A DNA stretch of 64,000 nt from Bradyrhizobium altum (lineage in GTDB: Bacteria > Pseudomonadota > Alphaproteobacteria > Rhizobiales > Xanthobacteraceae). The position numbers and the translations under genes were made by a program. Location of the stretch: contig NZ_JACMYP010000003.1 of assembly GCF_020889705.1 (NCBI RefSeq), forward strand, positions 62,001-126,000, written 5' to 3'. Under the pieces are notes generated by a model. The model did no database searches and was not told where the DNA came from. It worked only from the letters and a program-made list of their open reading frames with translations. Numbering within the stretch: the first letter of the stretch is position 1; each line of letters starts with the position of its first letter. Below are positions 4,554 to 25,154 of this stretch, piece after piece.

Positions 4554-4675
4554 CGCCGCCATCCCGAGCGGGCTCGGATCCTCGTCCACGGGCCTACGCA
4601 CCGCTGTCACACTTCGACGCTAACGTTGCAGATTGGACACAGCCGCCCGCCTGGGAAACAATCGACGCGGATACG

Positions 4676-5431
4676 ATGAGCATTGGATATCTTTCGAGGG
4701 GCTCGGCAGGGCGCCCCTCAGACGCTCGTCGATTGTGCGTTTTGATCTGCGTCTGCATGCTGGGCGCTGGCAGCGATGTCGCGATGGGGCAGGACAGTCC
4801 GATCGCTGCTGCGCCGCGCCTCACCTTTGATATTCCGTCGCAACCCCTGACATCCGCACTGGAAAGTTATGGCGCCACGTCGCGGCGTGAGGTGCTCTAC
4901 GATGCGCGGCTTGCGACTGGCCGACTCTCAGGCGAGGTGAGGGGCGTCTTCGCGCCGTCCGAGGCTTTGCAGCTCCTGCTCGATGGCACCGGCCTTGTCG
5001 GCCGCCTGACGTCGGAGAATGCCGTGGTGATCGTGCCCTCGTCTCCGGCCGGCGGGCAGCTGACGACGCCCGACGTCGATGCGCGAAAAGGCGATCCGGT
5101 CATTCGCGCCCGTTACTATGCCATGGTGCAGGAGCGCGTTCGCGACGCCTTCTGCAGGGACACTTTGCTGCGGCCCGGCCGCTATCGGATCGCCGTGCAG
5201 TTCTGGATCGCTCCAACGGGATCCGTGCAACAGACTAGGCTTCTGAGTAAGACAGGCGATGACCGCGTCGACAGCGCGATCGAGACGACGCTGCGCGGAT
5301 TGAGAATGAACGAGGTGCCGCCGCCCGGCATCTCGCAACCCCTCACGATGGTCGTTGCGGCGCGTCCGTCGGAACGGACCCAGGACTGCGCCGGGATCGA
5401 CGCAATCCGGACCATCGGTGGGGTGAATTGA
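4676..5431 (+). CDS. Secreted STN-domain plus TonB C-terminal-like protein
   Basis: A 251-residue exported protein. A signal peptide is visible (LCVLICVCMLGAGS, about residues 22-35). Residues about 48-120 form an STN (secretin/TonB short N-terminal) domain, with FDIPSQPLTSALESYG and a final VVIV strand. The last 110 residues resemble the TonB C-terminal domain (YRIAVQFWIAPTGSVQQTRLL, then DSAIETTLRGLRM). STN domains normally sit at the N-terminus of TonB-dependent transducers and signal to FecR. Here there is no beta-barrel receptor, only STN joined to a TonB-like tail. It lies directly upstream of an ECF sigma factor and FecR, so a role as signal relay to FecR is a reasonable inference. Confidence 0.75.
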   Translation: MSIGYLSRGSAGRPSDARRLCVLICVCMLGAGSDVAMGQDSPIAAAPRLTFDIPSQPLTSALESYGATSRREVLYDARLATGRLSGEVRGVFAPSEALQLLLDGTGLVGRLTSENAVVIVPSSPAGGQLTTPDVDARKGDPVIRARYYAMVQERVRDAFCRDTLLRPGRYRIAVQFWIAPTGSVQQTRLLSKTGDDRVDSAIETTLRGLRMNEVPPPGISQPLTMVVAARPSERTQDCAGIDAIRTIGGVN

Positions 5432-5441
5432 GCGTGCCGCA

Positions 5442-5945
5442 ATGAGCGACGCAACCCGGACCATGCTGCGTAGCTTCCTGGCTGCCCGCTACGACGATCT
5501 CAAGCTGCGGCTGAGCCGCCGTCTCGGATCGGCGGAGCTTGCCAGCGATGCGTTGCAGGACACCTATGTGCGTCTCGGGCGGGCCGAGGTGGCGGGGTCG
5601 GTGCAAAGCCCGGCGGCCTATCTGTTCCGCATGGCCTTTAACGTCGCAATCGACCGGCAGCGGGCCGAGAAACGGCGTCTGGCCCGCAATGAGGTTCAGG
5701 ATCTGCTTCATATTGTGGACGATGCGCCCGGGCCGGGTCAGATCACGGAGGCTCGCTTCGAGATTGAAGCCTTGGAGAAGGCGATCGCGGAACTGACGCC
5801 GCGCCGCCGGGTCATCCTGCTGGCCGCGCGGCTGCAAGGGATGCCGCAGCGGGAGATTGCCAGCCGGCTGGGGGTCTCGTTGCGCCTGGTTGAGAAGGAA
5901 CTCCGCCTCGCCCAGGAACACTGCGCGCTGAAGCTGGGAAAATAG
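5442..5945 (+). CDS. FecI-like ECF RNA polymerase sigma factor
   Basis: A 167-residue ECF sigma factor. Region 2 is visible as ELASDALQDTYVRLGRAE followed by the region 2.4-type helix SPAAYLFRMAFNVAIDRQRA. Region 4 ends in a helix-turn-helix, MPQREIASRLGVSLRLVEKE. The length and the DALQDTYVRL signature place it in the FecI group, whose members are held or activated by a FecR partner. It starts 10 bases after the STN gene and is followed by fecR-like and giant adhesin genes, so its regulon probably includes the exoprotein gene. Confidence 0.9.
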   Translation: MSDATRTMLRSFLAARYDDLKLRLSRRLGSAELASDALQDTYVRLGRAEVAGSVQSPAAYLFRMAFNVAIDRQRAEKRRLARNEVQDLLHIVDDAPGPGQITEARFEIEALEKAIAELTPRRRVILLAARLQGMPQREIASRLGVSLRLVEKELRLAQEHCALKLGK

Positions 5946-6039
5946 TTGTGCGGTTGATGGCTATCGCGAACGTCAAGCGGATAGGCGGACGGTTCGGCCG
6001 CGGAGGCTGCCGTTTGCGTGCGCGGCGGGGTAAGTCCGC

Positions 6040-7035
6040 ATGACGTACGAAGGCGGCAAATCGACGATAGGGCTCGGCGCGATGGAGCGGGAGGCACATG
6101 CCTGGGTGAGGCGCTTGACGTCCGGAGACGCGACAGTCGAGGACGCCGAGGCATTCCAGCTGTGGCGCCAGCAGAGCGCTGCCCATGCTATTGCCTTTGC
6201 CAAGGCTAGCAAGCTTTGGGAGACGGTTGGCAAAGCCGGCCATAACCTCCGGTATGACCCCGCGTCGCTGGGCGTGTTGCTTGATGGCGAAGCGAAGCGC
6301 GTGATGACCCGCAGGCTGGTGCTTGGCGGCGGGCTTGCAACCGCCGCGGCCGCCGTCGGAGCGGTGACGCTGCGGCCCCCGCTCGAGCTCTGGCCGTCAT
6401 GGTCCGAGCTTGCGGCCGACTACCGGACAGGTACGGGAGAGCAGCGCAAGCTCGCATTGAACGACAATGTGTCGATCAACCTCGACACGCGAACCAGCAT
6501 CGCGCTGCGCCCGGACCATGGCGACACCAGCCGTATCGAGTTGATCACGGGACAGGCATCGATCGCGACGGCCCCGCAGCAGTCCCGACCGGTGACGGTG
6601 ATCGCGTCCAGTGGTCAAACGGTTGCAACGCGAGCCTCGTTCGACGTGCGCTACCTCGGAGCCGAGGTGCGTGTCACCTGTCTCGGCGGCGAGGTTCGCG
6701 TCGAGCACCAGGGAAACGCCCGTACCGTTCGTGAAAGGCAGCAGATCGCCTATGACGAGAGGCGCATGAGCGACATCGTCGCGATCGATCCGGCCGTCGA
6801 GGCGGCCTGGCAAGAGGGATTGCTGATCTTCCGTTACACGCCCCTGCCCAAAGTGGTGGAGGAGGTGAACCGGTACCGATCGGGCCGGATCTTCATCGTC
6901 AATGCCGAGCTCAACGCCCATCTGATCAACGGCCGCTTCCATATCGATCGGATCGACGAGGTTCTCCTGCAGCTCGAACAAGCCTTTGGCGTGAAAGCCA
7001 AAACGCTTCCCGGCGGCATTGTGCTGCTCAGCTGA
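6040..7035 (+). CDS. FecR family anti-sigma/regulatory protein
   Basis: A 331-residue FecR protein. The N-terminal cytoplasmic part carries the DUF4880-type sigma-binding segment (REAHAWVRRLTSGDATVEDA, residues about 14-33). A single hydrophobic segment around residues 92-110 (LVLGGGLATAAAAVGAV) anchors it in the inner membrane. The periplasmic FecR domain follows (about 130-240), then a C-terminal DUF4974/STN-like region (FRYTPLPKVVEEVNRY to the end). FecR proteins pass the periplasmic STN signal to the ECF sigma factor. The neighbours on both sides (STN protein, ECF sigma, giant exoprotein) fit that scheme. Confidence 0.9.
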   Translation: MTYEGGKSTIGLGAMEREAHAWVRRLTSGDATVEDAEAFQLWRQQSAAHAIAFAKASKLWETVGKAGHNLRYDPASLGVLLDGEAKRVMTRRLVLGGGLATAAAAVGAVTLRPPLELWPSWSELAADYRTGTGEQRKLALNDNVSINLDTRTSIALRPDHGDTSRIELITGQASIATAPQQSRPVTVIASSGQTVATRASFDVRYLGAEVRVTCLGGEVRVEHQGNARTVRERQQIAYDERRMSDIVAIDPAVEAAWQEGLLIFRYTPLPKVVEEVNRYRSGRIFIVNAELNAHLINGRFHIDRIDEVLLQLEQAFGVKAKTLPGGIVLLS

Positions 7036-7050
7036 GGAGGCCTCTAGCGG

Positions 7051-7085
7051 TTTGCAAAAAATTTCGCATCCGGCGTGCGGGTCGG
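7051..7085 (+). promoter_or_regulatory. Candidate ECF promoter upstream of the giant exoprotein gene
   Basis: An A-tract, GCAAAAAATTT at 7054-7064, lies 115-125 bases upstream of the preferred start of the giant exoprotein gene and is followed by a GC-rich GTGCGGGTCGG block at 7075-7085. AT-rich tracts are rare in this GC-rich window, and similar A-tracts precede targets of FecI-type sigma factors in alphaproteobacteria. No start site can be read from sequence, so this is only a candidate for recognition by the ECF sigma factor encoded at 5442. Confidence 0.3.
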
Positions 7086-7179
7086 CCCATTCGGGATCGT
7101 CACAGCCGCGAGGGTCTCGGTGCTGGCGCTGAGACGCGAAATCTTCGGCTGTCGTCGCCCGGCGCAAGAAAGCGATTCC

Positions 7180-10100
7180 ATGGTTCGCCTCTCCAGGTCT
7201 CTCACCCGCGCGACGGTTCGCACTGCATTGTTTGGCAGCGTCAGCGTCGTGGCACTTCTCGCCAATACGCCGGTGGTCGCGCGCCCGTTTGGATCGAGCT
7301 GGACGGTGTCACCGTCAGCCGCGGCGATGGCAGCGTCGCAGTCGGCAGCGCAGGACGCGGCAGCAGCCGCCAAGCACGGTCAGGATGCGATGGCGCGGGC
7401 CACGCGCGCCATCCAGGCGATCCAGGGCCTGCAGAACGCAGCGCGCGCCGCGGCGCAGACCTCGCAGCGTTCGGCGACGCTGCCGCAGGTCGCAGTGCCC
7501 AACGGCCTTGCGACCGGTGGCCTGCAGGTAGCGCCGGGATGGCAGGGCGCGAATGCGCCGACGCAGGCGATCGATGCCGCCGGCCAGACCCAGGTCGGCA
7601 TCGCGCAGACCAGGGCGCAGGCGATCCTCAACTGGAATTCATTCAACGTCGGCGCGCGCACCACGCTGACCTTCGAGCAGCAAGGCCATGCAAACTGGGT
7701 GGCTCTCAACCGCGTCGTCGGCAGCGCGGCGCCGAGCCAGATTCTCGGCAATATCAAGGCCGACGGCTCGGTCTATGTGATCAATCAGAACGGCATCATC
7801 TTCGGTGGTGCGAGCCAGGTGAATGTCGGCTCGCTGATCGCCTCGACCGCCAACATCACCGACACCCAGTTCCTGCGCAATGGCATCTACTCGCAGCAGG
7901 CGAGTGGCCAATACGTGCCGAGCTTCACCGATGCCCGCGGCGCGGTGTGGGTCGAGGCCGGCGCGCTGATCTCGACCAACGCACCGTCCTCGGTGACGCA
8001 GGGGGGCGGCTTCGTGCTGCTGATGGGAACCGAAGTCAGCAATGCCGGCTCGATCAGCGCACCGCGAGGCCAGGTGCAGCTCGCAGCCGGCAACGACTTT
8101 CTGCTGCGGCCGGGTTACAGCACGGATGCCAACCAGGCCTCGACCACACGCGGCAACGAAATCTCGCCGATCGTGCGCGACGCGATCGCGGCTGTCGGCA
8201 ATTCCGGCCTGATCTTCGCCCAGCAAGGCGACATCACGCTTGCGGGCCGCAGCATCACCCAGGGCGGGGTGCTGGTCGCCACGACCTCGGTCAACACCCG
8301 CGGCACGATCCATCTCCTGAACGCAGCGTCCGATGCCGCGGGCAGCATCACGCTCGCCAGTGGCAGCCTGACCGCGATCCTGCCCGAGCTCGACAGCAGC
8401 GACACCGCGCTGGACAGCCAACGCAGCCAGCTTGTCGCCGATTCCAAGGCCTTCACCCACGCCCCGGCCGCCAACGCCCAGTTCGACAATCTTTCCCAGC
8501 TCGCCGACCGGCTCGACCAGGGACGTATCGAGATCGTCAGCGGCGGTACTGTAAATTTCAAGGACGGCTCGACCACGCAGGCTCAAGGCGGCCAGGTGGC
8601 GGTCAGCGCCAGCCGCCGCGTCTTCGCCGAGAGCGGATCGATCATCGACGTCTCGGGCGTGCGCGGCGTGCTGCTGCCGGTGTCGACCAACAACCTCCTG
8701 ATCAACGTTCAAGGCAACGAGCTGCGCGACTCGCCCGCCAATCGTGATCGGGACAATCTGAAGAACGCGGACGTCTGGATCGACGCGCGCGATCTGGTGC
8801 TGGTGCCGGCGGGCACCGGCGGCTATGCGACCGACCGCTACTATACGCCGGGTGGCCTGCTCGAGGTCTCGGGATATCTCGCCAACACCGCCCACCGGAT
8901 CGGCGAATGGGCCGCGGTCGGCGGCACCGTCACGCTGTCGGCGCAGGAAGTCGTCGCGCAGAAGGGGGCGGTGTTCGACGTCTCCGGCGGCTCGATCAGC
9001 TATCAGGGCGGCTACATCCGCGCCACCAATTTCCTTGGCGCGGACGGCCGTCTCTACAGCGTCAACCAGGCACGCGCCGATATGCAGTTCTACGGCTTCG
9101 GCGCGGGCTTCATTCGCGAGCACAAGCTCGGCGGCAAGGTTGCGCCGAATCTGACCGAGGTCTGGACCAGCCCGTTCGGCAAGGGCCGCGTGACCACCCG
9201 CTGGGAGGACGGCTACACCATCGGCCGTGACGCCGGCTCTCTCGTCCTGTCCACGCCGACGGCAGTGTTCGAAGCTGATATCGTCGCTGATGTCGTCACC
9301 GGCTCACGCCAGACGACGGCGCGGCCGGACGGCACCACCGACGGCTACAAGCTGTCGCAGAATGTCGCGCCGCTCCAGGGCAAGCTCGCGCTCGGTGGCT
9401 ATTCGGGGCTTGGCCTCACCAGTGCGTCCGCCGCGCGGGTCATCTTCGGCCGCACGCCTGAGATCACCGATGCGCTGAACGCCACGTCGGTCTTGCCCGA
9501 CGATCGGATCGGGACTGCATTGTTCAATTCGGACGCACTCAATGCCGCCAGGCTGGGCGGTCTCAGTGTTGCGAGCAGCAAGGAAATCCTCGTCGAGGCG
9601 CCGCTCGAGCTTGCTCCTGGCGCGCAGGTGATCTTCATGGCGCCGCATGTCGAGATCGGCGCGAGCGTCACGGCGCATGGTGGCAGCGTGACGCTGACCA
9701 ATCTCATGCATGCCGTGTTCGGCCAGGGGCAGAACGAGCTATGGTGGGCGCTCAACGCTCCGAACGGCAAGTCGCAGGTCACGATCGGCCAGAACGTCGC
9801 CGTCGATCTCAGTGGGTTGTGGAGCAACGAACTGACTGGAACCGATGGATCCGGCCGGGCGCATCTGGATGGCGGCAATTTCACTGTTTCGACCACGGGC
9901 GGCATTACGCTTGCGAGCGGGTCGCTCATCGATGTGTCGTCGGGTGGCGCCATCCTGGCGAATGGCAAGACGCAGGGCGGCAAGGGCGGCAATGTCAGCC
10001 TCGTCGCCAATGACTATTCGCATCTGCCTTCGACGCAGTTCTTCACCAATCCGCTCATCCTCGACGGCACCATTCGCGCTTACGGCTTCGGTGGCGGCGG

Positions 10101-13100
10101 CACGCTGATGCTGAACGCCGGCCAGGAGATATCGATCGGCCAAGCCGTGGCCGATGCGCTGGTGCTCGATCCGGCGATCTTCCAGTCCGGCTTCACGGCC
10201 TACAACATCAGCAGCAATACGGGCATCCGGATCGGCGAAGGCGCCCGTGTGGACGCCGAGGTGCCGGTCTATCGCTTCACCCCGCGCAGCTTCATCACGC
10301 CCAGCGGGAGCCTCGTCACCGAGGCCGCGGACCTCTGGACGCCTCCCAACTTCACGATCAATTCCTTCACGCGCAGCGCCACGCAGCGCGTCGGCGCCGA
10401 TCTGACGTTCTGGAGCCTGCATGATTTCACGCTGGCGAAGGGCGCGTCGATCAACGTCGATCCGGGGCGTTCGGTCTCGATCTTCGCCAATCGCCAGACT
10501 GTCATCGACGGTGCGATCAAGGCGCCCGCCGGCAATATCCTGATCACGAGCCTGCAGGACGCCACCAGCGACGCCCGCTACAATATGGGTTACGGCGAGT
10601 TCGGCCTGACGCGTTCGTTCTGGATCGGCGACGACGCGGTGCTGGATGTTTCCGCGCGTGATGCGGTGGGACGCGATGAGCGCGGGGTTTCGTATGCGGC
10701 CGTGCCCGACGGCGGCACGATCCGCATCGGAGCGCTGGATCCGAAAAATCCCGTTATCAGCGACGCCTTCGTGATCGTTCGCCCGGGCGCGCTGATCGAT
10801 GCGTCGGGTACCTCTGCACTGGTCGATGTCCAAAGCGGCAACGGCTATGTCCAGACGCCTGCCGCGAGTGATGGCGGGACGATCTCGCTCTATTCCAGCT
10901 TCGGTATGGCGCTCGACGGCACCTTGCGCGCGGCGTCGGGCGGCAGCGGCGCGTCCGGCGGCGCGCTGAACCTGACGATGTCTTGGCGTGGCTATATCGT
11001 TGGGCAGCCGAATGCAAACGCGCCCTATGCCAGCGGCGATCTGCCTGAGGCGTTCCAGAGGTCGCGCGATATCACGCTCGTGCAGAACGCCACAGGCAGC
11101 GGCCTGAGCGCCGATCTGTCGCCCGGTCAGGCCGATCCGGCGCTGCAATTCGGACGGACGGTGATTGGCGTCAACCAGGTCGAGAAGGGCGGCTTCGGCT
11201 CGCTCGCACTCTTTACCCGCGATCTTCTCATCTTCGGCGGCAATGTGGATCTCAGCCTGTCGCGCAGCCTCCGGCTTTCGAGCGGCGTCATCGCCGCGGC
11301 GCCTGACACCCCGAACAGCACAGTTCGCTTGTCCGCGCCCTATGTCCGGCTCGATGGCGTCTACAACGCCGCAGATGCGCAGACGTCGATGGGATATTCG
11401 CCCGGGATCAACAATCTCCACGTCCGCAATCCGGCGGCGGGCGGAAGTTTCTCCGTCGCAGGCAACTTGATCGATGTCTACGGCTCCGTCCTGTTCGGAG
11501 CCACCGGCGTGCAGGGCAGTGGGGCGGTCGATTTCGGTCCCGGACGTCCGGTCAGCATTCCATTCGATGCCCGCGGCTTTCGTCAAGTCGCGTTGCAGAG
11601 CAGCGGTGATATCCGGTTCGGCAATGGCGGCCTCGATGTTGAAAATCTCGCGCTGACCGCCGACCAGATCTATCCCTTGAGCGGCGCGGTCGCCACGATC
11701 GTGGTTGGGCTCCGTCCGAATGGAATAAGTGCCGCCTATGATCCCGACGCCCGTCTCGTGATCCGCCGCAACGACGACCAGACACCGGCGGTACCGGCTG
11801 CGGTGTTCGGCGATCTAACTCTTGTTGCCGCCAATGTCGACCAGGGGGGTGTTCTCCGCGCGCCACTGGGGCGCATCTCGTTCAACAGCGATGCCGGGGC
11901 ACGGATCACCTTCCGCAGCGGAAGCATCACCTCCGCAAGCGCAGCCGGCTTGATCATGCCGTTTGGCGGCACCTCGGATGGCATCACCTATCAGGGCGCG
12001 GACGGCACGCTGCACAACCTGGCGAGCGCCTTCTTTGACGATCATACGAGCAATCTAAAGATCGCCAGCGGCATTTCGATCAATGCTGCATCCGTTGTGG
12101 GTGAGCCGGGCTCGGTGCTCGATCTCTCCGGCGGCGGCACGCTCACCGGCGCGGGCTTCGTCTCCGGCCGTGGCGGTTCGGTCGACGTGTTGAAGACCGC
12201 GCTCGTCAACGCCAATCCGGTCAACAGCTACAGCGCCGCGGGCAACAAGGTCTATGCCATCCTGCCCGGTTACGCCGCCGACTACGCGCCGGTGATCGCA
12301 TCCAATGGCGCCGGTGATCCCGTGATCGGCCAGCAGATCACGCTTCGTTCGGGTGCGCCAGGATTGCCCGCGGGCACCTATACGCTACTCCCCTCGAGCT
12401 ACGCGCTGTTGCCTGGCGGTTACCGCGTCGAGCTTGGCGCCACCGGAACGAGCATGATAGCGCCCGTGACCGCGGGCAATGGCTCGGTGGTCACATCTGG
12501 CTATCTTGGCGTCGCCAACGCCGGAATGAGGGACACGCTGCCAACACGGGTGATCCTGACCGCCGGCCAGACCACGCGGCTTTATTCGCAGTATAACGAG
12601 ACCGGCTATGCCGATTTCGAGCGCGCACAGGCGGCCCAGTTCAGTGGCTTCCGGCCTCATCTGCCGGAAGACGGCAAGGTCCTTGTACTGAATCTCTTCC
12701 CGTCGCCGGATAATACGAAATCGCTGTCCTTCGCCGGCACCGCGCTGTTCGACGGTGCCAAAGGCGGCGTTGACGGCACGCTGGTCATCAGGCCGCGGCT
12801 CGCCTCATCGGGTGACGGCGTGCTCGACGTCACGGCGCCGGGAACCGCACCCATCGCGGGTCATACGTCGATTTCGAGCGACGACATCAATGCCTTCAAG
12901 GCATCGACGGTGCTGCTGGGCGGCGCCAGCGTGTACTCCGAGGTCGATAATTCCGGGGCCGGTGCCAATATTTACTTTGATGGGAGCTCGACCACGGCCG
13001 TCAACCTGCTCGACGGCGCTACGATTCGCGCGGGCCAGGTGTTCCTGATCGGCAAGACCGTCAACATGGCGGGCGGCGCGACCATCGACACGCGCGGCTT

Positions 13101-16100
13101 GAGCAGCAACGCGGTCGATTCCACGCTGGGTTACTTCTACGCCAACATATCGCCTGACTCGTCTGCAAACCCTGCCTACAGTCCGGCTGTGCTCGCGGTC
13201 GCCAATGGCCGGTTCCAGTTCCTGGATGCCGTTGGGCCCGGCAACATCAGCATCGCGAGCGGTGCCTCGTTGCTCACGGACGGCAGCGTGGTGCTGGCCG
13301 CGCCGGGCGGGCTCTCGATGGGTGACGTCAATTTCGGCGCGCGCTACCTCAACGTCACGCAGGAGCAGATCAATGTCGGCACCGCGGCCGCGGTTGCCGC
13401 GGCGCAGGCCGCAGGTCAACTGCCGTCGGGCTGGAATCTCACCCAGAGTGTGCTCGACAAGCTGCTGCGGCCGTCGACGACTGCCGGCAGCCCGACGCTC
13501 GAGCAACTCATCATCACGGCAAGCGGCGCCTTCAATCTGATCGGCAGTGTCGACCTCGACGCCACGCGCCGGGGCGGCGCCTCCTCCGATTCCCTCAAAT
13601 TCGTTCTCAATACACCGGCGATTTATGGCCTCGGCTCCGCGGGCGACACCGCCGGCATCACCGCCGACACGCTGGTCTGGAACGGCATTCGCACGGGCAA
13701 CGGCAGCACCACGAGCCCTTACGGCAGCCAGACGCCAGCCGCGGTGCTGCCCGGCGGCCCGGGCACGGGATCGGGGCATCTCGCCATCACGGCCAGCGAG
13801 ATTCTGTTCGGCTACGACGCCGCGCTGAGCAAGCCGACCGATGGCGCAACGCTGAACCGCCTGGCGCTTGGCTTCTCCGATGTCACGCTGACGGCTACGA
13901 AACGCATCACCGCGAACAGCAACGGCACCCTGAAGGTGGGGCTCAGCCAGGACAGCACCGGCGCATTGCAGGGCGGTGCGCTCACCATTGCGACCCCGCT
14001 GATCACGGCGAGCGGTGGGGCTACGCTCGATGTCAGCGCGGGCGCAGCCTTGCGTCTGGTCGCGCCGGCTGGAGCCACGCCTGCCGACACGCGTGGTGCG
14101 ACTGATCTCGGCGGCACGCTCTCGTTCGGCGGCGACAGCGTCTTTGTCGACACCGCCTTTGCCTTGCCGTCCGGCAAGCTGACGCTGAATGCGACGCACG
14201 ACGTCGTGCTTGGCGCAAACGCGACCGTCGACCTGTCGGGCCGCGGCATCGCCTTCTTCGATGTCACCAAATTCAGCTGGGGTGGCGATCTCATCCTGAG
14301 CTCCACCAACGGCGACATCATCCAGGGCGCCGGTTCGGTGATCGATGTCTCGGCCGCGTACAACGCAGCGGGCTCGATCACGGCCAAGGCGATCGATGCT
14401 GCGCATGGGCAGGTCTCGTTCGCCGGTACGCTCAAGGGATCGTCGACCGGCGATTACGACAGCGGCCAGCTCACGGTAGCGGCACAGAGTTTCGGCGATT
14501 TCGCCGCGTTGAATGCCAAGCTCAACGATGCCGGTTTCTTCAGCGCCCGCAGCTTTGATCTCCGTCAAGGCAGCCTTGTCATTGGCGATGGCGTCAAGGC
14601 GCGCTACCTCGCGGTCTCGGTCGATCAAGGAAGCCTCACGGTCGACGGCCGGATCGACGCGAGCGGGGCGAAGCCCGGCACCATCCGCCTGTCCGCGCGC
14701 GACGATCTCAGGCTCACTTCGAATGCCGTGCTCGATGCCCATGGCAATGTGCTCCAGACCGACAGCTACGGCGTGGCGATCGAAGCCAATAACACTGCGC
14801 ATATCGAACTCACCACCACGCAGGGCACCATGACGGTGGCCGCGGGCGCGACGATCGACATGACCTCGCCGGATGGCGTGGCGCGCGGCAAGCTCGAGCT
14901 CAATGCGCCGCGCCGCGGCGGCGCTGGCGGCGACGGTGCTGGCGCCAACGACATCGCCATCGAAGCGCGCGGCCCGTTCAATATTCGCGGTGCCAGCAGC
15001 ATCGCGATGAACGGCTTCCGCACCTACTGCCTGCCGGGCGGCAGCGTCATCGATCAGGCCTACCTCGACGGTCTGAATAACGACAGCGCGGCATTCATCA
15101 ACGCTGCGCTCCAGAATGGCGACTTGCAGAACCGCCTGGCCGGGCTTGCGGCCTATGGCTCCGCCTTCCATCTGCGGCCCGGCGTTGCCATCACCTCAAG
15201 CGGTGGTCTGTCGACGAAGGGCGATCTCGATTTCTCCGGCTATCGCTATGGACCAAACGCCGATCCGGCCGTGCGCGGCTCCGGTGAGCCGGGCGTGCTG
15301 GTCGTGCGTGCCGCCGGCGACCTCAAGATCAACGGCAGCATCAATGATGGATTCGCACCACCGCCGGCGTCACCCGATGCGGTGACGGTGATTGCCACCG
15401 GCACGTTGCCGGACGCCTATACGGTTCGGACGGATGGGGTCGTCCTCGGCAATGGTTCGACCATTCCGAGCGATGGCACAATCAACCTCGAGCTCGATCT
15501 CGCCGACGGAAGCGTCGTGCAGAGCCCGACCGCCGTGCATCCGCTCCCCGTCGCGCTAACCTTGTCGGAGGCCTTCACTGTGAAAGGACCCGCCAATCGG
15601 ATCAGGACGCTGAATGGCGGGCGCATCATAGCTCCGGGAAAGACTTACAATCCGGGTGATGTGCTGCCAGTTGGGACAGTATTTCCGGACGGCACCGTAT
15701 TTGAAAAGGGCGTCTATTTTACCGGGCAGATCTTCATCAATGCTGCGCTCAGTCTGGCGGTTGAGCCTGTGAAACTGCCGGCGGGGACCAGCCTTGTGCT
15801 GTTCGGGGGGTACACATTCACGGCCGATACGCCGCTTGCCAAGGGCACGGTGCTTCCGGCGGGCATGACGAACGTCAATCTGCTCGGACCGGGCGACCGC
15901 CAAATCTGGGCGATCTCGCCGATGCTCGCTCCCGGAACGCAGTCCTGGTCGATGCGGCTCGTGGGCGGCGCCGATCTTGCCAGCGCCGACAGCCGTGCGC
16001 TGCGGACGGTCGATGCACTCGCCGGTTCGGGCAACGTGGTGTTCAATGATCCGTTCAGCGTCACCATCAACAAGCCGACGACATCAGGCGTCAGCGTGGT

Positions 16101-19095
16101 GCGCACCGGGACGGGTGATCTCGAAATTCTCGCGGGCGGCAGCTATGACCAGCAATCGCCATTTGGCGTCTACACCGCTGGCACCGCCATCATGGAGACC
16201 GGTACCACGGCGAACGAGCCTTACAATCTCAGCCGCGGCACGTTATCCGACGGCACGGTGCTTGGCTCGGCAAACACCGCGTATCAAGCGACCCTTGGTT
16301 CGGAGCGGATGTATTACGCCGAGCATGGCGGCGACTTCCTGCTTGTCGCGCAGGGCGATGTCAGAGGCACCCTAGCGAGCCGGACGACCGAGATCGGGTC
16401 CTGGCTGTGGCGCCAGGGTGGTTCGGAGATCGTCCAGCGGACGGCCTGGGGCATCAATTTCGGCGGCTATACGTTTGATCCGGCGCTCAACAATGGCACG
16501 CTGGCCTTGAATCTCTCCGCCTTCTCCGGCCTCGGCACGCTCGGCGGCGGCAATGTCACGGTGCAAGCCGGAGGCACGATGGGTGACACAGGCCGGGGCG
16601 TCGTCATCGCCGTCGGCGGCAGCGGACGTATCATGGCCGATGGCAGCCTGGTGCAGACCGGCGGCGGCACGCTGTCGGTGCAGGCCGGCGATCTCGGCAC
16701 CGGCGGCAATCAGTTCGTCAATCTGCGTGGACGGATGGATGTCGCGACCGGAGACTTCGGCAGCCTGACCGCGACAAACATTCGCAACACGGCGGATCTG
16801 CGACCGATCAACCCGCTGACGCCCTATTCCATGACCACGCTCGCCGGTGGAGATTTCGCTCCGGGTGACAGCGTGATCGATATCCGCGCGCGCGGCGACA
16901 TGGCCGTGGGAACCATACTCGATCCGGGCCGTGTCGGCGTCACTGGTCTGACCGCTGCGGATAACGGCGGCGAGGGTGCAAGCTGGTTCACGCTCTGGAC
17001 GGCGACAACCGCGGTCAATATGGTCGCCGCGGGCGGTTCGCTCGCACCGGGCAGTAGCCCGTCAAACTCGCGCTTCCTGCCCTCGATCGTGCGAGCGGTC
17101 GCCGCGAACGGCAACATCTATAATCCGGGCGGAGGAATGCTGCTGCCATCAGCGAACGGAACGCTCGAGCTGCTGGCGCAAGGGTCGATCTTTGGCGACG
17201 CACTCGAGACGGGTCTCTTGACAACACCGATGTCGGCCCTGGCAACCCCGTTCAGGCCTGGCTGGGCGACCCTGAGGGATGGAACGACGATCACTGCCTC
17301 CAATTATTGGGGCGACTATACCGCTGTGGACGATCAACCAGGCGGCGGGCTGCCCGTTTACTCGTACGATACCGGCGGACAGCCCTTTGTGTTCGATGCA
17401 AACACGGTGCAGAACAGGGCCGTGCCGGTCCAACGCGATCTGTCGCACATCTATGCGGTGAACGGCGATATCACGGACATCACTTATGGTTGGATCCTCA
17501 ACAAGAGCCGGACCGGGGCCGATGGCACCGTCAACAGCGTCTATTATCAGGCGGCAAGGCCACTGCGGATGCTGGCCGGCGGTGACATTGTCGATATCAA
17601 GGGCTTGATCCTGCAGAGCGACGCCAATGATGTGTCCACGATAGCGGCCGGGGGCAGCATCATCTATGCAGGCAGGCCAGGGCTCTCTCCCGGGGAGAAG
17701 GGTGGCCTGACGATTGCAGGCCCGGGTACGCTCGAAATCACGGCCGGCAAGAACATCTATCAGGGGTCAACCGCGACGGTCGAAAGCCTCGGAGCTCTGG
17801 TCGCCGGCGACAAGCGGCCTGGCGCTGGCGTTGTGATGCAGGCTGGCGTCGGTACGGGCGAGGTCGGTGTTGGACAGGTCGACTGGACCAATTTTGCGAA
17901 GCTCTATCTCGATCCGAGCAATCTCGCAGCCGCGGGGCCGATCGCGGACCAGCCAGGCAAGGTGGCCAAGACCTATGGAGACGAGCTCTACGATTGGCTG
18001 AAGCAACGCGTCGGGTACAGTGGGGCCAAGGCCGATGCGCTCAATTTCTTCCTCGCGCTGCCAGATGCGCAGCAGCGCGTTTTCCTGCGCCAGGTCTACT
18101 ATGCCGAGCTGACCGCGGGCGGGCGCGAGTATAACGAAGTCGGCGGCGCGCGCGCAGGCTCCTATCTGCGCGGGCGCGAGGCGATCGCCGCGCTGTTCCC
18201 GAATGATGCCGCCTATCGTGGCGACATCACGATATTCACCGCGGCAACCGGTACGCCGGGCCAGCCGAATTACGCCATTCAAAGTGGCTTCGTTCACACC
18301 GATTTCGGCGGCGACATCCAGTTCCTCACGCCGGGCGGCGGCGTCACGATCGGGACCGAGGGGCTGCTGCCGGGCGCCGATGCCGGCCTCGTCACGCAAG
18401 GCGCGGGCAACATCCAGATCTATTCGCAGAACAGCGTGCTGATGGGCCTGTCGCGCATCATGACGACGTTCGGCGGCAATATCGTGATCTGGTCGGCCGA
18501 AGGCGACATCAATGCCGGCCGCGGCGCCAAGACCACGGTGATCTATACGCCGCCGAAGCGCGCCTACGACAATTACGGCGATATCACGATATCGCCGGTA
18601 GTGCCGTCCAGCGGCGCCGGCATCGCAACGCTGCAACCGATCCCGGAGGTGCCGCGCGGGACGGTCGATCTGATCGCGCCGCTTGGCACCGTCGATGCCG
18701 GCGAGGCCGGTATCCGCGCGTCGAGCTTCGTCAACATCGCTGCATTGCATATCGTCAACGCAGCCAACATTCAGGCGCAGGGTGGCGTGATCGGCGTGCC
18801 GCAGGTGCAGGCGCCCAACATGGGCTCCTTGAGCGAAGCCTCGAACACGGCGGGCGCCGCTGCCAAGCAAGTGGCCGTGCCGCCGCCGCAGACGAACGAG
18901 CAGCCTTCCGTCATCATCGTCGAAGTGCTCGGCTATGGCGGAGGCGACGGCAGCGATGATCAAAAGCGGCGCAGCAACGACAAGCAAAGCCAATACGACC
19001 CGAATAGCGCTTTCCAATTGATCGGCGATGGCCAGTTGACCGCGGAGCAGTTGAAGAAGCTGACGCCGGATGAGCGCCGTCAGGTCGCGAACTAG
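7180..19095 (+). CDS. Giant filamentous-haemagglutinin-like two-partner-secretion exoprotein (TpsA)
   Basis: A 3,971-residue surface protein, the largest gene in the window. The start at ATG 7180 is preferred over an earlier in-frame GTG at 7075 because it gives a clear signal peptide (RTALFGSVSVVALLANTPVVA) and has a purine-rich AAGAAAG upstream. Residues about 110-330 form the TPS/haemagglutination-activity domain (RAQAILNWNSFNVG, then NQNG at 202-205 followed by IIFGGASQVNVGSLIAS). The long centre is rich in G, S, A, N, T and D with short repeated beta-strand phrases such as SGSLIDVSSGG, as expected of a right-handed beta-helix. The final 500 residues, including PGTLEITAGKNIYQGS and SGAKADALNFFLALP, resemble DUF3739. 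It probably mediates adhesion or biofilm formation. No TpsB exporter gene accompanies it. Confidence 0.88.
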   Translation: MVRLSRSLTRATVRTALFGSVSVVALLANTPVVARPFGSSWTVSPSAAAMAASQSAAQDAAAAAKHGQDAMARATRAIQAIQGLQNAARAAAQTSQRSATLPQVAVPNGLATGGLQVAPGWQGANAPTQAIDAAGQTQVGIAQTRAQAILNWNSFNVGARTTLTFEQQGHANWVALNRVVGSAAPSQILGNIKADGSVYVINQNGIIFGGASQVNVGSLIASTANITDTQFLRNGIYSQQASGQYVPSFTDARGAVWVEAGALISTNAPSSVTQGGGFVLLMGTEVSNAGSISAPRGQVQLAAGNDFLLRPGYSTDANQASTTRGNEISPIVRDAIAAVGNSGLIFAQQGDITLAGRSITQGGVLVATTSVNTRGTIHLLNAASDAAGSITLASGSLTAILPELDSSDTALDSQRSQLVADSKAFTHAPAANAQFDNLSQLADRLDQGRIEIVSGGTVNFKDGSTTQAQGGQVAVSASRRVFAESGSIIDVSGVRGVLLPVSTNNLLINVQGNELRDSPANRDRDNLKNADVWIDARDLVLVPAGTGGYATDRYYTPGGLLEVSGYLANTAHRIGEWAAVGGTVTLSAQEVVAQKGAVFDVSGGSISYQGGYIRATNFLGADGRLYSVNQARADMQFYGFGAGFIREHKLGGKVAPNLTEVWTSPFGKGRVTTRWEDGYTIGRDAGSLVLSTPTAVFEADIVADVVTGSRQTTARPDGTTDGYKLSQNVAPLQGKLALGGYSGLGLTSASAARVIFGRTPEITDALNATSVLPDDRIGTALFNSDALNAARLGGLSVASSKEILVEAPLELAPGAQVIFMAPHVEIGASVTAHGGSVTLTNLMHAVFGQGQNELWWALNAPNGKSQVTIGQNVAVDLSGLWSNELTGTDGSGRAHLDGGNFTVSTTGGITLASGSLIDVSSGGAILANGKTQGGKGGNVSLVANDYSHLPSTQFFTNPLILDGTIRAYGFGGGGTLMLNAGQEISIGQAVADALVLDPAIFQSGFTAYNISSNTGIRIGEGARVDAEVPVYRFTPRSFITPSGSLVTEAADLWTPPNFTINSFTRSATQRVGADLTFWSLHDFTLAKGASINVDPGRSVSIFANRQTVIDGAIKAPAGNILITSLQDATSDARYNMGYGEFGLTRSFWIGDDAVLDVSARDAVGRDERGVSYAAVPDGGTIRIGALDPKNPVISDAFVIVRPGALIDASGTSALVDVQSGNGYVQTPAASDGGTISLYSSFGMALDGTLRAASGGSGASGGALNLTMSWRGYIVGQPNANAPYASGDLPEAFQRSRDITLVQNATGSGLSADLSPGQADPALQFGRTVIGVNQVEKGGFGSLALFTRDLLIFGGNVDLSLSRSLRLSSGVIAAAPDTPNSTVRLSAPYVRLDGVYNAADAQTSMGYSPGINNLHVRNPAAGGSFSVAGNLIDVYGSVLFGATGVQGSGAVDFGPGRPVSIPFDARGFRQVALQSSGDIRFGNGGLDVENLALTADQIYPLSGAVATIVVGLRPNGISAAYDPDARLVIRRNDDQTPAVPAAVFGDLTLVAANVDQGGVLRAPLGRISFNSDAGARITFRSGSITSASAAGLIMPFGGTSDGITYQGADGTLHNLASAFFDDHTSNLKIASGISINAASVVGEPGSVLDLSGGGTLTGAGFVSGRGGSVDVLKTALVNANPVNSYSAAGNKVYAILPGYAADYAPVIASNGAGDPVIGQQITLRSGAPGLPAGTYTLLPSSYALLPGGYRVELGATGTSMIAPVTAGNGSVVTSGYLGVANAGMRDTLPTRVILTAGQTTRLYSQYNETGYADFERAQAAQFSGFRPHLPEDGKVLVLNLFPSPDNTKSLSFAGTALFDGAKGGVDGTLVIRPRLASSGDGVLDVTAPGTAPIAGHTSISSDDINAFKASTVLLGGASVYSEVDNSGAGANIYFDGSSTTAVNLLDGATIRAGQVFLIGKTVNMAGGATIDTRGLSSNAVDSTLGYFYANISPDSSANPAYSPAVLAVANGRFQFLDAVGPGNISIASGASLLTDGSVVLAAPGGLSMGDVNFGARYLNVTQEQINVGTAAAVAAAQAAGQLPSGWNLTQSVLDKLLRPSTTAGSPTLEQLIITASGAFNLIGSVDLDATRRGGASSDSLKFVLNTPAIYGLGSAGDTAGITADTLVWNGIRTGNGSTTSPYGSQTPAAVLPGGPGTGSGHLAITASEILFGYDAALSKPTDGATLNRLALGFSDVTLTATKRITANSNGTLKVGLSQDSTGALQGGALTIATPLITASGGATLDVSAGAALRLVAPAGATPADTRGATDLGGTLSFGGDSVFVDTAFALPSGKLTLNATHDVVLGANATVDLSGRGIAFFDVTKFSWGGDLILSSTNGDIIQGAGSVIDVSAAYNAAGSITAKAIDAAHGQVSFAGTLKGSSTGDYDSGQLTVAAQSFGDFAALNAKLNDAGFFSARSFDLRQGSLVIGDGVKARYLAVSVDQGSLTVDGRIDASGAKPGTIRLSARDDLRLTSNAVLDAHGNVLQTDSYGVAIEANNTAHIELTTTQGTMTVAAGATIDMTSPDGVARGKLELNAPRRGGAGGDGAGANDIAIEARGPFNIRGASSIAMNGFRTYCLPGGSVIDQAYLDGLNNDSAAFINAALQNGDLQNRLAGLAAYGSAFHLRPGVAITSSGGLSTKGDLDFSGYRYGPNADPAVRGSGEPGVLVVRAAGDLKINGSINDGFAPPPASPDAVTVIATGTLPDAYTVRTDGVVLGNGSTIPSDGTINLELDLADGSVVQSPTAVHPLPVALTLSEAFTVKGPANRIRTLNGGRIIAPGKTYNPGDVLPVGTVFPDGTVFEKGVYFTGQIFINAALSLAVEPVKLPAGTSLVLFGGYTFTADTPLAKGTVLPAGMTNVNLLGPGDRQIWAISPMLAPGTQSWSMRLVGGADLASADSRALRTVDALAGSGNVVFNDPFSVTINKPTTSGVSVVRTGTGDLEILAGGSYDQQSPFGVYTAGTAIMETGTTANEPYNLSRGTLSDGTVLGSANTAYQATLGSERMYYAEHGGDFLLVAQGDVRGTLASRTTEIGSWLWRQGGSEIVQRTAWGINFGGYTFDPALNNGTLALNLSAFSGLGTLGGGNVTVQAGGTMGDTGRGVVIAVGGSGRIMADGSLVQTGGGTLSVQAGDLGTGGNQFVNLRGRMDVATGDFGSLTATNIRNTADLRPINPLTPYSMTTLAGGDFAPGDSVIDIRARGDMAVGTILDPGRVGVTGLTAADNGGEGASWFTLWTATTAVNMVAAGGSLAPGSSPSNSRFLPSIVRAVAANGNIYNPGGGMLLPSANGTLELLAQGSIFGDALETGLLTTPMSALATPFRPGWATLRDGTTITASNYWGDYTAVDDQPGGGLPVYSYDTGGQPFVFDANTVQNRAVPVQRDLSHIYAVNGDITDITYGWILNKSRTGADGTVNSVYYQAARPLRMLAGGDIVDIKGLILQSDANDVSTIAAGGSIIYAGRPGLSPGEKGGLTIAGPGTLEITAGKNIYQGSTATVESLGALVAGDKRPGAGVVMQAGVGTGEVGVGQVDWTNFAKLYLDPSNLAAAGPIADQPGKVAKTYGDELYDWLKQRVGYSGAKADALNFFLALPDAQQRVFLRQVYYAELTAGGREYNEVGGARAGSYLRGREAIAALFPNDAAYRGDITIFTAATGTPGQPNYAIQSGFVHTDFGGDIQFLTPGGGVTIGTEGLLPGADAGLVTQGAGNIQIYSQNSVLMGLSRIMTTFGGNIVIWSAEGDINAGRGAKTTVIYTPPKRAYDNYGDITISPVVPSSGAGIATLQPIPEVPRGTVDLIAPLGTVDAGEAGIRASSFVNIAALHIVNAANIQAQGGVIGVPQVQAPNMGSLSEASNTAGAAAKQVAVPPPQTNEQPSVIIVEVLGYGGGDGSDDQKRRSNDKQSQYDPNSAFQLIGDGQLTAEQLKKLTPDERRQVAN

Positions 19096-19208: not shown

Positions 19209-19796
19209 TTAGCCCGCCGCGCGGGGCAGGGAACCGTTTGCCGTGATCTCGGCCGAGAGCTCCTCGATGGTCTTGCGCTGCTCCATGGCGGCGCGCCGGA
19301 TCAGCGCAAAGGCGGCCGGCTCGGCGAGTGCATGGGTGTGCATGACCTGAAGGACGGCGGCGAGCACGACGCGGCGGGATCGAAGACGTTGCTCGAGCTT
19401 AAGCACCTGCTGCTTCAGCTCATTGGTGCGCTCGCTTCGCTCGAAGGCGAGGACCAGCGCGGCATAGATGCCGGCCGAGCGCAGCGGCTTGACCAGGAAC
19501 GAGGCCGGATCGAGGTCGAGCACCAGCTTGAGGCGGCTTGGCGTCTCCGTGCCGAGCAGGGCGATGACCGGGCTTCGCCCAAGCGCCGCGCGCTGCGCCG
19601 GTGAGGTGAGCGGCAGGAACTCGTCGTCGATCAGCGTCACGTCCGGCCGGCAGTCGATTTTGGCGCCGCCATCCCATGTGACGATGTCGATCCCGAGACG
19701 TTCGAACTGGCGCCTGACGATGGTGGCGTCGCGCTCGTCCTTGATGGCGACGAGCGCCTTGCGCCCGCGCAGCGAAAATGACGACGGCTTGCTCAT
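19209..19796 (-). CDS. amiR: AmiR-like ANTAR-domain antitermination regulator
   Basis: A 195-residue protein with a pseudo-receiver-like N-terminal half (RKALVAIKDERDATIVRRQF; VTLIDDEFLP), a connecting coiled coil (RTNELKQQVLKLEQRL) and a C-terminal ANTAR three-helix domain (AEPAAFALIRRAAMEQRKTI). AmiR binds the leader RNA of the amidase operon and prevents early termination; AmiC keeps it inactive without amide. Its ATG overlaps the stop codon of the amiC-like gene by four bases (ATGA), the classic amiC-amiR arrangement. Its target is probably the leader of the divergent amidase operon that starts at 21375. Confidence 0.85.
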   Translation of the reverse strand: MSKPSSFSLRGRKALVAIKDERDATIVRRQFERLGIDIVTWDGGAKIDCRPDVTLIDDEFLPLTSPAQRAALGRSPVIALLGTETPSRLKLVLDLDPASFLVKPLRSAGIYAALVLAFERSERTNELKQQVLKLEQRLRSRRVVLAAVLQVMHTHALAEPAAFALIRRAAMEQRKTIEELSAEITANGSLPRAAG

Positions 19797-20956
19797 TTCA
19801 CAACCCGCAAATGGGGCGCATTCGGCAACGTTCCATCCCTTGCGGGGCCGGCGGCGATGTCGAGCTGCGTCAGATAGGGATCCGGTTTAACCGGAGCTTC
19901 AGCTTCCCAGAAGATGTCAAACTGTCCGTCGGCGTTGGAGACGGCGAGCCGCGGCGTCAGGACGCAGTGGTTGTTGCTGCCGTCGATCCAGACCGGACCT
20001 TGCGGCGAATTGTAGCGGTGGCCGGCCGCGGCGCGCCGCACCTCGCCGATATCGGATGTGCCGGCGCGTTGTAGCGCGCGGGCCAGCAGATAGACCGCGA
20101 CATAGGCGGATTGCCCGTCCACCGACGGGCTGCTGTGCTCGCCGTGACGCGCCTTCCAGCGCGCGACGAAGGCCTGGTTCTCGGGCAGCCGGATGCTTTC
20201 GAAATAGGCCGACGACGTGATGCAGCCGGCCGATGCGGGACCTGCGATCTTGAGCTCGGGCTCGCACAGGCTGCAGCTCAGCATCGGGATATCGAGACCT
20301 GCCGCGGAGGTCGCGGCATGAAACGCGCGGATGAAATCATAGCTCGAACTGCCGACCAGCGTGTTGAACACAACCGGCGGCCGGCGCCGCACGATCTCGT
20401 CGACGATATGCGTGACCGCGCTTTCACCGAGCTCGAGCAGGCGTTCGGCGAGAATCCGTCCCCGCGCCGCCGTCACCAACTCACGGGTGACGCGGTTGGT
20501 TTCCCAGGTCCAGACATAGTTGGAGCCGACGCAGAAGATCTCGCGCGACAGATTGTCGAGCACGTAGCGCACCAGCGGCAGCACGTTGTGATTGGGCGAG
20601 GCGCCGACATAGATGACGTTGTCGGAGCATTCGAACCCCTCGTAGCGTGCCGGATACCAGAGCAGGCGGTCGGTGCGCTCGACGATCGGGAGCACCTGTT
20701 TGCGGGAGGCCGAGGTGTAGCAGCCGATGATGTGCTCGACCCCGACATTGCGAATGAGATCGTCGCAGACCGTATGATATTCCGAAATGACGCCGCGGGG
20801 GTCGCGGACATGCGCCGATATCGCGAAGTCGAACTCGTCCTGCTCGTTGATCTCGTCGACCGCCATCATGGCGCTCTTCAGGATCTCGCGCCCCATGGCC
20901 TGATAGGGCCCGTGCTGCGAGCAGATAATGCCAACGGGAATGGACGGCTTTGTCAT
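19793..20956 (-). CDS. amiC: AmiC-like amide-sensing negative regulator (periplasmic-binding fold, cytosolic)
   Basis: A 387-residue type I periplasmic-binding-protein fold without a signal peptide, as in AmiC, the cytoplasmic amide sensor that sequesters AmiR. The N-terminus PVGIICSQHGPYQAMGREIL and the conserved IIGCYTSASRKQVLPIVER, YPARYEGFE and GASPNHNVLPLVRY blocks are typical of the AmiC/UrtA group. The start is set at ATG 20956; an in-frame TTG lies two codons upstream. It is divergent from the amidase/ABC operon, and its binding-protein relative at 23822 probably delivers the same class of ligand to the membrane transporter. Confidence 0.85.
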   Translation of the reverse strand: MTKPSIPVGIICSQHGPYQAMGREILKSAMMAVDEINEQDEFDFAISAHVRDPRGVISEYHTVCDDLIRNVGVEHIIGCYTSASRKQVLPIVERTDRLLWYPARYEGFECSDNVIYVGASPNHNVLPLVRYVLDNLSREIFCVGSNYVWTWETNRVTRELVTAARGRILAERLLELGESAVTHIVDEIVRRRPPVVFNTLVGSSSYDFIRAFHAATSAAGLDIPMLSCSLCEPELKIAGPASAGCITSSAYFESIRLPENQAFVARWKARHGEHSSPSVDGQSAYVAVYLLARALQRAGTSDIGEVRRAAAGHRYNSPQGPVWIDGSNNHCVLTPRLAVSNADGQFDIFWEAEAPVKPDPYLTQLDIAAGPARDGTLPNAPHLRVVK

Positions 20957-21228
20957 CGACAACTTTCAGTGCAACTCATGCAGGAAACCATCTTCGCAGA
21001 GGCCGGTGCAAGAGGTCATGCCATTTTGCTGCGCAGCACCTCGCGAAATTTGTGCAGCCAGCCTCGTTGACAACGCGCTGCACACCTCCTTAGAATTTTC
21101 TCCTACAGGGCTTCCTGTCGAACCTTGCGTGCGTCGATTTGGCCGATGACGTCCCGATCGCCGCGCAGAGTGCTCCGTTCGATCCCGGACCCACGCGATA
21201 GTTCATAGCCGCGGCATTTGGGCCATTC

Positions 21229-21267
21229 GTCACCTTCGTTTGGAGGGGCGGGTGGCTTTTTGCTTTT
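21229..21267 (+). terminator. Possible leader attenuator (weak stem plus U-rich run)
   Basis: GTCACC at 21229-21234 can pair with GGTGGC at 21251-21256 (one G-U pair), followed at once by five T and, after GC, four more T. The stem is only six pairs with a 16-base loop, so this is a weak terminator at best. It lies in the leader of the amidase operon, where an AmiR-type antiterminator would act. Confidence 0.3.
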
Positions 21268-21280
21268 GCCGCGAAACAAA

Positions 21281-21304
21281 TTGGCGATACGTCCGTGTCG
21301 CCAA
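21281..21304 (+). promoter_or_regulatory. Leader hairpin with six-base loop
   Basis: TTGGCGATA (21281-21289) pairs with TGTCGCCAA (21296-21304), nine pairs with one G-U, closing a six-base loop CGTCCG. ANTAR proteins bind hairpins with hexanucleotide loops, but the A1/G4 loop consensus known for ANTAR targets is not met here. The location 71 bases before the amidase start is suggestive only. Confidence 0.3.
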
Positions 21305-21374
21305 GCCGGAGGCGCATGCGCGGTGATGGGCAGTGCCTGCGCTTGCGTCGTGCCAAGTGCGGGGATGAGAAACG

Positions 21375-22775: not shown

Positions 22776-22792
22776 GTTGAGGAGCCGTTCGC

Positions 22793-23788: not shown

Positions 23789-23821
23789 CTTCCACATCTT
23801 TCAACGACAAGGAACATCGCG

Positions 23822-25060: not shown

Positions 25061-25070
25061 TGCAAGCGGG

Positions 25071-25092
25071 CACGAATCTTGCTCGTGTTTTT
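25071..25092 (+). terminator. Short stem with T-run after the binding-protein gene
   Basis: CACGA (25071-25075) pairs with TCGTG (25083-25087) and is followed by five T. It lies ten bases after the stop of the binding-protein gene. The stem is short, so it is likely a partial terminator within the operon. Confidence 0.35.
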
Positions 25093-25113
25093 CATTGCTG
25101 CTTTGAAGCGAAC

Positions 25114-25137
25114 CGGCGCCGCAATGATGCGGCGCCG
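25114..25137 (+). other. Strong intercistronic stem-loop between binding-protein and permease genes
   Basis: CGGCGCCGCA and TGCGGCGCCG form ten perfect pairs around the loop ATGA. There is no T-run after it. Stem-loops at this place in ABC transporter operons usually block 3' exonucleases and raise the level of the upstream binding-protein message; that role is inferred. Confidence 0.7.
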
Positions 25138-25154
25138 TGATCAGGGAGAGTGGA

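Follow-up and report, generated by a model that had tools for sequence, protein, structure and literature searches.

The closest described relative of the locus studied here is PUMA3 (VreA-VreI-VreR, PdtA/PdtB) of Pseudomonas aeruginosa. According to the part of Llamas et al. (2009, PMC2729926) that describes this system, VreA is barrel-less, joins an FpvA-like N-terminal domain to a TolA/TonB-like C-terminal domain and has VreI and VreR as its partners, and in P. aeruginosa the PUMA3 sigma factor increases transcript levels or output of a TPS system and of exbBD. In the same part, Rhodopseudomonas palustris and Janthinobacterium sp. are reported to have four PUMA3 clusters: a tpsA homologue follows three of them, and a tpsB-like gene accompanied by exbBD follows the remaining one. 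As for export, one TpsB serves several TpsA proteins in Bordetella bronchiseptica (FhaC) and Neisseria meningitidis (TpsB2), and many TpsB proteins export only their own partner, as stated in the portion of PMC10449530 on TpsB partners.

The window analysed here is the whole stretch of 64,000 nucleotides from Bradyrhizobium altum. A reading made from the DNA letters alone (the sequence-only reading) had described an STN protein, an ECF sigma factor, FecR and a TPS exoprotein consecutively on one strand, and four such plus-strand ORFs were found, together with two candidate promoter elements:

4593..4622, plus strand: Pho-box-like promoter candidate 5' of the STN gene, with the proximal half-site CTGTCAC, 10 nt and then TA
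4676..5431, plus strand: VreA-like barrel-less signalling protein (STN and TolA/TonB-type C-terminal domain), 251 aa, from Pfam, PDB sequence matches and a model
5442..5945, plus strand: ECF sigma factor, FecI/VreI-like, 167 aa, from Pfam and NCBIfam; groups with other barrel-less sigmas
6040..7035, plus strand: FecR/VreR-like anti-sigma factor, 331 aa, from Pfam (FecR and DUF4880) and a PDB match to 6ovk
7056..7064, plus strand: A-rich element (AAAAAATTT) between fecR and tpsA, a candidate part of the tpsA promoter, from a two-block motif
7180..19095 (frame open from GTG 7075), plus strand: TpsA-type giant adhesin (TPS domain, C-terminal DUF3739), from Pfam

The order of STN, sigma and FecR genes on one strand is of the vreA-vreI-vreR type, and a survey of 68 entries showed this order in 66 (L162 and L163 are without sigma or FecR in the stretch, and L153 is the same place as L030).

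The STN protein contains the Pfam STN domain (29.6 bits, cut-off 28.4) and a C-terminal TonB_2 domain (32.8 bits, cut-off 22); the latter was absent from the sequence-only reading, and it identifies the system. No barrel family was detected by Pfam in this 251-aa protein, so that its STN domain does not head a TonB-dependent barrel as in FecIRA. In a sequence search, the STN part matched PDB chains of FemA, PupB, FpvA, PupA, FecA and HasR. The predicted model of the protein (mean pLDDT 74.4, pTM 0.45, 15 sequences) consists of two mostly confident parts and a poor linker (residues 124-138); residues 47-121 superpose on the FpvA signalling domain (Z 15.5, rmsd 0.8) and residues 140-230 on the TolA C-terminal domain (Z 10.1, rmsd 2.3 over 87 residues). 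Pfam assigned sigma-70 r2 and r4_2 to the sigma protein, and a PDB sequence search matched the anti-sigma protein to the anti-sigma chain of 6ovk (E 2.7e-16), an entry whose titles name PupR in complex with the signalling domain of a receptor.

Like PUMA3 of P. aeruginosa, the unit has a barrel-less STN-TolA/TonB protein, a sigma factor and FecR, arranged in that order; it is likewise linked to a TPS exoprotein, the system includes tpsB and exbBD, and related modules have Pho-box-like promoters. Unlike PUMA3, it has no adjacent hxc type II secretion genes, tpsA follows fecR directly, the TpsB of the genome lies in another module, there are several modules per genome, and the Pho box here is weak. 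With signalling of the FecIRA/FpvA type, the unit shares the STN domain, the ECF sigma factor and FecR; it differs in lacking a TonB-dependent barrel, in the position of the STN gene before the sigma-FecR pair and in having the adhesin in the receptor's place.

Among the scanned neighbours of the unit, both upstream (an AAA protein, a VWA protein and an alpha/beta hydrolase by Pfam) and downstream (an AmiR/AmiC-like pair, an amidase, a formamidase-like protein and ABC-transporter proteins), neither a TpsB nor a TonB receptor was found, in agreement with the sequence-only reading. Its further suggestion, an exporter coded elsewhere, was borne out by the genome-wide search for TpsB that it had proposed: PF03865 matched one TpsB-type ORF in the whole window genome, on contig C313, which rules out a genome with no TpsB at all. 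The near relative G004, whose genome is complete in one contig, also has a single PF03865 gene, whose locus comprises STN, a TonB_C protein, sigma, FecR, TpsB, ExbB and ExbD. The window genome (G000) and G004 each contain four barrel-less STN modules, four DUF3739 matches and four TPS-domain matches. In G004, three modules precede a DUF3739 adhesin, the fourth precedes TpsB with ExbB and ExbD, and the adhesin near 6.57 Mb has no adjacent STN-sigma-FecR module. In G000, two adhesins are on contigs separate from their modules, and the STN gene and TpsB of the exporter locus are likewise split; because these parts are on separate contigs, the adhesin-module and STN-TpsB links in G000 rest on likeness to G004. 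The pieces on contigs C62 and C389 are guessed to belong to one gene, the fourth adhesin. The link to a TPS system with exbBD is distributed over the genome, tpsA being in the window and tpsB, exbB and exbD in another module. At the level of predicted genes and domains, it is established that a two-domain STN protein, a sigma factor and FecR are followed by tpsA in the classical position of the receptor gene, and that the one TpsB-type gene of the genome belongs to a fourth such module.

In the exporter locus L023, the ExbB-like protein beside TpsB (9647-11686) is large and unusual, with DUF2341 and a laminin-G/concanavalin-like domain before MotA/TolQ/ExbB, and a Porin_5 family protein (13511-15403, 715 bits) comes after TpsB-ExbB-ExbD.

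The sequence-only reading had also named a case that would speak against it, namely a TpsB that belongs to the same operon in close relatives and was merely lost here. The first half of this case has some counterpart, as TpsB lies near the adhesin in four genomes: the distance from the start of the DUF3739 domain to the TpsB start downstream is about 7 kb in G162 and G183, whose adhesin has an STN gene upstream, and about 4.7 kb in G083 and G205. The second half does not hold, because G004 has an equal TpsB-less unit, and a recent loss of TpsB in the window strain is thereby ruled out. In G162 (L284, L285), the STN gene is found immediately before the adhesin with neither sigma nor FecR between them, and downstream is a TonB_C-sigma-FecR-TpsB-ExbB-ExbD locus with no STN gene in front, an undivided form of the system. 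Such an STN gene directly at the adhesin indicates that STN proteins may in some cases work without a sigma factor encoded next to them.

The proposal that the unit represents a new coupling found no support. It is of the PUMA3 kind, and the division into tpsA and tpsB clusters was stated for R. palustris in 2009 in the cluster description of PMC2729926. As given there, the layout in R. palustris and Janthinobacterium sp. equals that of G004 and, across contigs, that of G000, so that the arrangement was already in print; the R. palustris layout, seen in both genomes, puts the exporter gene outside the unit and makes the unit itself no novelty. Compared with the R. palustris clusters of that description, an extra module-less adhesin is present here and about 10-17 modules occur in other genomes of the genus; nothing essential differs otherwise. 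The systems of B. bronchiseptica FhaC and N. meningitidis TpsB2 resemble the window in having TpsA proteins without an adjoining TpsB and an exporter elsewhere, whereas a sigma switch for each adhesin, as seen here, is not mentioned in the corresponding portion of PMC10449530. In the open-licence papers searched, no earlier report was found of the genus-wide co-occurrence of exporter and adhesin, of module multiplication or of the Pho-box pattern outside Pseudomonas, nor did they yield a joint mention of filamentous hemagglutinin with DUF3739 or of an ECF sigma factor, FecR and hemagglutinin in Bradyrhizobium. The present analysis adds the co-occurrence of the TpsB subfamily with DUF3739, the multiplication of modules, the sigma branch and the Pho-box pattern beyond Pseudomonas.

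Among 195 genomes of the genus, DUF3739 was detected in 57 (best 22 candidates per genome scored) and the TpsB subfamily of the exporter (E<=1e-50) in 49 (best 6 candidates per genome scored); all 49 fall within the 57, and none of the other 138 genomes has the subfamily. PF03865 overall matched in 165 of the 195, so it is only the exporter subfamily, not TpsB in general, that tracks DUF3739. Eight genomes have DUF3739 without the subfamily: in six of them (G073, G076, G085, G136, G138, and G178) the DUF3739 frames are short or the match is weak, G201 is 81% complete, and G089, in about 1,000 contigs, has a TpsB fragment. The subfamily is single per genome except in G097, which has two partial genes at contig ends (C76, C21; L286) that overlap on the query; in each of G065 and G190, two TpsB pieces together resemble one split gene.

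For the relation of adhesins to modules, a table was made of 147 DUF3739 rows from among the matches listed (leaving out the fragments G089 C28:38215 and G160 C162:147085 and 147020) and of 140 of the 150 STN rows listed (leaving out ten receptor-type or half matches). The matches listed include 106 adhesin frames with 3,600 codons or more, from 49 genomes. For 73 of these frames, from 31 genomes, a same-strand STN module lies 12.5-15.8 kb upstream; the remaining 33 are without an upstream module, some at contig ends and many in module-free genomes. A TpsB of the subfamily lies within 30 kb on the contig for eight of the 73 module-linked frames listed and is not found there for the other 65. 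The TpsB genes themselves have an STN module 3.7-4.7 kb upstream in 28 of 49 cases. By the matches listed, 16 of the 49 genomes have no module in the table and one adhesin row each, and the other 33 have one or more modules together with 1 to 15 adhesin rows; the numbers of modules and adhesin rows are correlated over 56 genomes (Spearman 0.94), the largest sets (adhesin rows, modules) being those of G089 (16, 17), G097 (15, 15) and G175 (10, 10). Some giant adhesins and their modules are consecutive on one contig (G097 C28, G175 C100).

The adhesin of the window is 4,006 aa long from GTG 7075 and 3,971 aa from ATG 7180, the latter standing before a signal-peptide-like stretch. It is a TpsA protein by its TPS domain (PF05860, residues 168-412, 85.2 bits, cut-off 33.5), has DUF3739 at residues 3800-3909 (Pfam, 127.4 bits) and is 91% identical in G004. 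When 21 adhesins were aligned over about 2,600 N-terminal residues and identity was measured to the window protein, the best-conserved 100-residue block lay within the TPS region, with mean identities of 60, 54, and 50% in the blocks of residues 161-460, which contain the TPS domain. Other blocks of high identity are 561-660 (56%) and 1661-1860 (48-49%), and much of the remaining alignment is at roughly 30-35%. Conservation of the TPS region is compatible with recognition by a common kind of TpsB, short of proving it.

The pstS-like gene of the window genome has a perfect Pho box (14/14) with TA 10 nt downstream, and its pattern, of 16 consensus positions, was used to score the modules against AT-matched tiles as background. 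Upstream of the STN gene, the pattern reached p<=0.05 in 24 of 36 modules. In named genomes it did so in 24 of 42 barrel-less loci (8/19 outside Bradyrhizobium and 16/23 inside), as against 0/19 classical loci and 1/42 reverse complements (L230 and L242 excluded from the 42-versus-19 comparison); the sets of 36 and 42 share ortholog groups, and the p-values, which treat related loci as independent, are too small. These figures supersede a first comparison with badly placed regions (p<=0.05 in 4/19 non-Bradyrhizobium, 4/22 Bradyrhizobium and 0/19 classical loci); the earliest scan, which used the Pho consensus alone, had shown only a small difference (mean 8.97 vs 7.93 of 14). The window's own Pho box matches 10 of 16 positions (p 0.149), which is weak alone, and its distal half is degenerate; its named orthologs L165-L167 also match 10 of 16 (p 0.15-0.23). 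The heptamer TGTCACA upstream of the STN gene is invariant in 15 aligned orthologous loci among the alignments listed (L123 and L150 left out).

Before tpsA of the window, no significant Pho box was found, the best (p 0.055) being at an unfitting place. Behind fecR, a Pho 22-mer reached p<=0.05 in 10 of 36 modules but not in the window. An A-rich motif of two blocks was detected there in 27 modules, related copies included; its best run scored 15.2 bits and other runs down to 12.2, compared with 10.5-11.0 in 12 mononucleotide-shuffled sets. Both the Pho 22-mer and the A-rich element are candidate promoter elements only.

Beyond the genus, a search of 398 genomes of the phylum revealed at least 11 with a full-length barrel-less STN match (best 7 candidates per genome, among the matches listed), and nearly all other STN matches listed represent the STN half of a frame about 770-1,200 codons long. 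A genome collection contributed 79 loci (L165-L243). All 44 loci L165-L208 have an STN ORF of 237-401 aa, with the complete STN-sigma-FecR set in 42 (the exceptions are L176, at the locus end, and L201); their source genera include Bradyrhizobium, Bordetella, Variovorax, Cupriavidus, Herbaspirillum, Hyphomicrobium, Rhodoplanes, Pseudomonas and Halomonas. The loci L209-L243 are of the receptor type (L242 is cut). In loci L282 and L274 (genomes G303 and G338), Pfam detected type II secretion genes after STN-sigma-FecR, and in L282/G303 PstS-like (PBP_like_2) genes and a TPS protein come next, so that the G303 locus resembles the published PUMA3 locus in its succession of STN-sigma-FecR, type II secretion, PstS-like and TPS protein genes. 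In Pseudomonas otitidis, locus L188 was considered as the PUMA3 locus itself and rejected, its VreA-like STN-sigma-FecR set adjoining a chemotaxis gene cluster with no TPS gene found within 8 kb downstream.

In a sigma tree of 76 rows, one branch (support 100/98.7) splits 57 barrel-less from 19 receptor-linked sigma factors. Three of the 57 are from type II secretion loci (two by Pfam, and L281 by likeness to L282); L230 and L242, whose receptors are cut at the locus end, and eight near-copy Bradyrhizobium sigmas of TpsB loci were left out, and P. aeruginosa VreI is absent. An earlier tree of 74 rows had grouped 53 barrel-less rows together (99/99), with two mislabelled rows outside.

We consider it highly likely that the unit represents a signalling module of the PUMA3 type (VreA-VreI-VreR) that serves an adhesin of its own; its signalling, sigma-target and export steps are inferred. 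The STN domain would touch FecR on its periplasmic side; an envelope signal, which may enter via the TolA/TonB-like domain, would lead to FecR processing and release of the sigma factor, which would transcribe tpsA, and the adhesin would leave through the TpsB encoded in the other module. The STN-sigma-FecR operon may answer phosphate starvation via PhoB, as in P. aeruginosa, though less surely in the window copy. Points against this reading are the non-significant Pho-box scores of the window and of L165-L167, the G162 adhesin with neither sigma nor FecR between it and the STN gene, the 33 long adhesin frames that lack an upstream module and the frequent PF03865 proteins outside the exporter subfamily. 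The idea of the sequence-only reading that the cue comes from the envelope rather than from a siderophore is plausible. The opposite view, in which classical FecIRA siderophore signalling has recently lost its receptor and the adhesin is a bystander, could draw on the FecI/FecR similarity and on the resemblance of the STN domain to its counterparts in FecA and FpvA, but the barrel-less sigmas stand apart from the 19 receptor-linked ones, the second domain of the STN protein is common to its relatives, and the adhesin link recurs in 73 frames of 31 genomes (among the matches listed) and also in other genera, all of which makes it very improbable. An orphan TpsA that is not exported, with the TpsB serving only another partner, seems improbable as well: no TpsB adjoins, and the relevant portion of PMC10449530 describes many TpsB proteins as bound to their own partner, but against this stand the open frame of 4,006 codons with 91% identity in G004, the TPS region as the best-conserved part, the occurrence of the TpsB subfamily only in DUF3739 genomes (best-scored candidates, 195 genomes) and the precedents for one TpsB with several TpsAs in B. 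bronchiseptica and N. meningitidis that the same portion gives.

Tentatively, many Bradyrhizobium genomes may keep a wardrobe of giant adhesins, each with its own STN-sigma-FecR switch and phosphate-starvation promoter and all with one shared TpsB; if private switches choose the adhesin that is worn, phosphate stress and a specific envelope signal would form an AND gate for each adhesin. Rather unlikely, in our judgement, is a secretion checkpoint, in which the STN-TolA/TonB protein would report on TpsB/ExbBD or on adhesin transit and the adhesin gene would be on only when the exporter is free. The TolA/TonB-like domain of the STN protein, the genes for ExbB, ExbD and another TonB_C protein beside TpsB, and the G162 STN gene directly at the adhesin with no sigma between would all agree with such a checkpoint; however, coupling to ExbBD in the manner of TonB would be unusual, because the N-terminus of the STN protein, judged by eye, is only signal-peptide-like.

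A system investigated as a virulence regulator in one pathogen appears in part of Bradyrhizobium, as well as in other genera, in the form of a repeated module that precedes giant surface proteins, which apparently have one exporter in common. Should the phosphate link prove true, adhesion of soil and root bacteria would be tied to the phosphate supply. As many natural VreA-adhesin pairs can be compared, the question of what VreA senses becomes more approachable.

Downstream of the adhesin, at window positions 19209-26021, lies what is probably an amide-use cluster, with an AmiR/ANTAR and AmiC-like pair and, facing it, an amidase, a formamidase/acetamidase-like protein and an ABC transporter of the branched-chain type.
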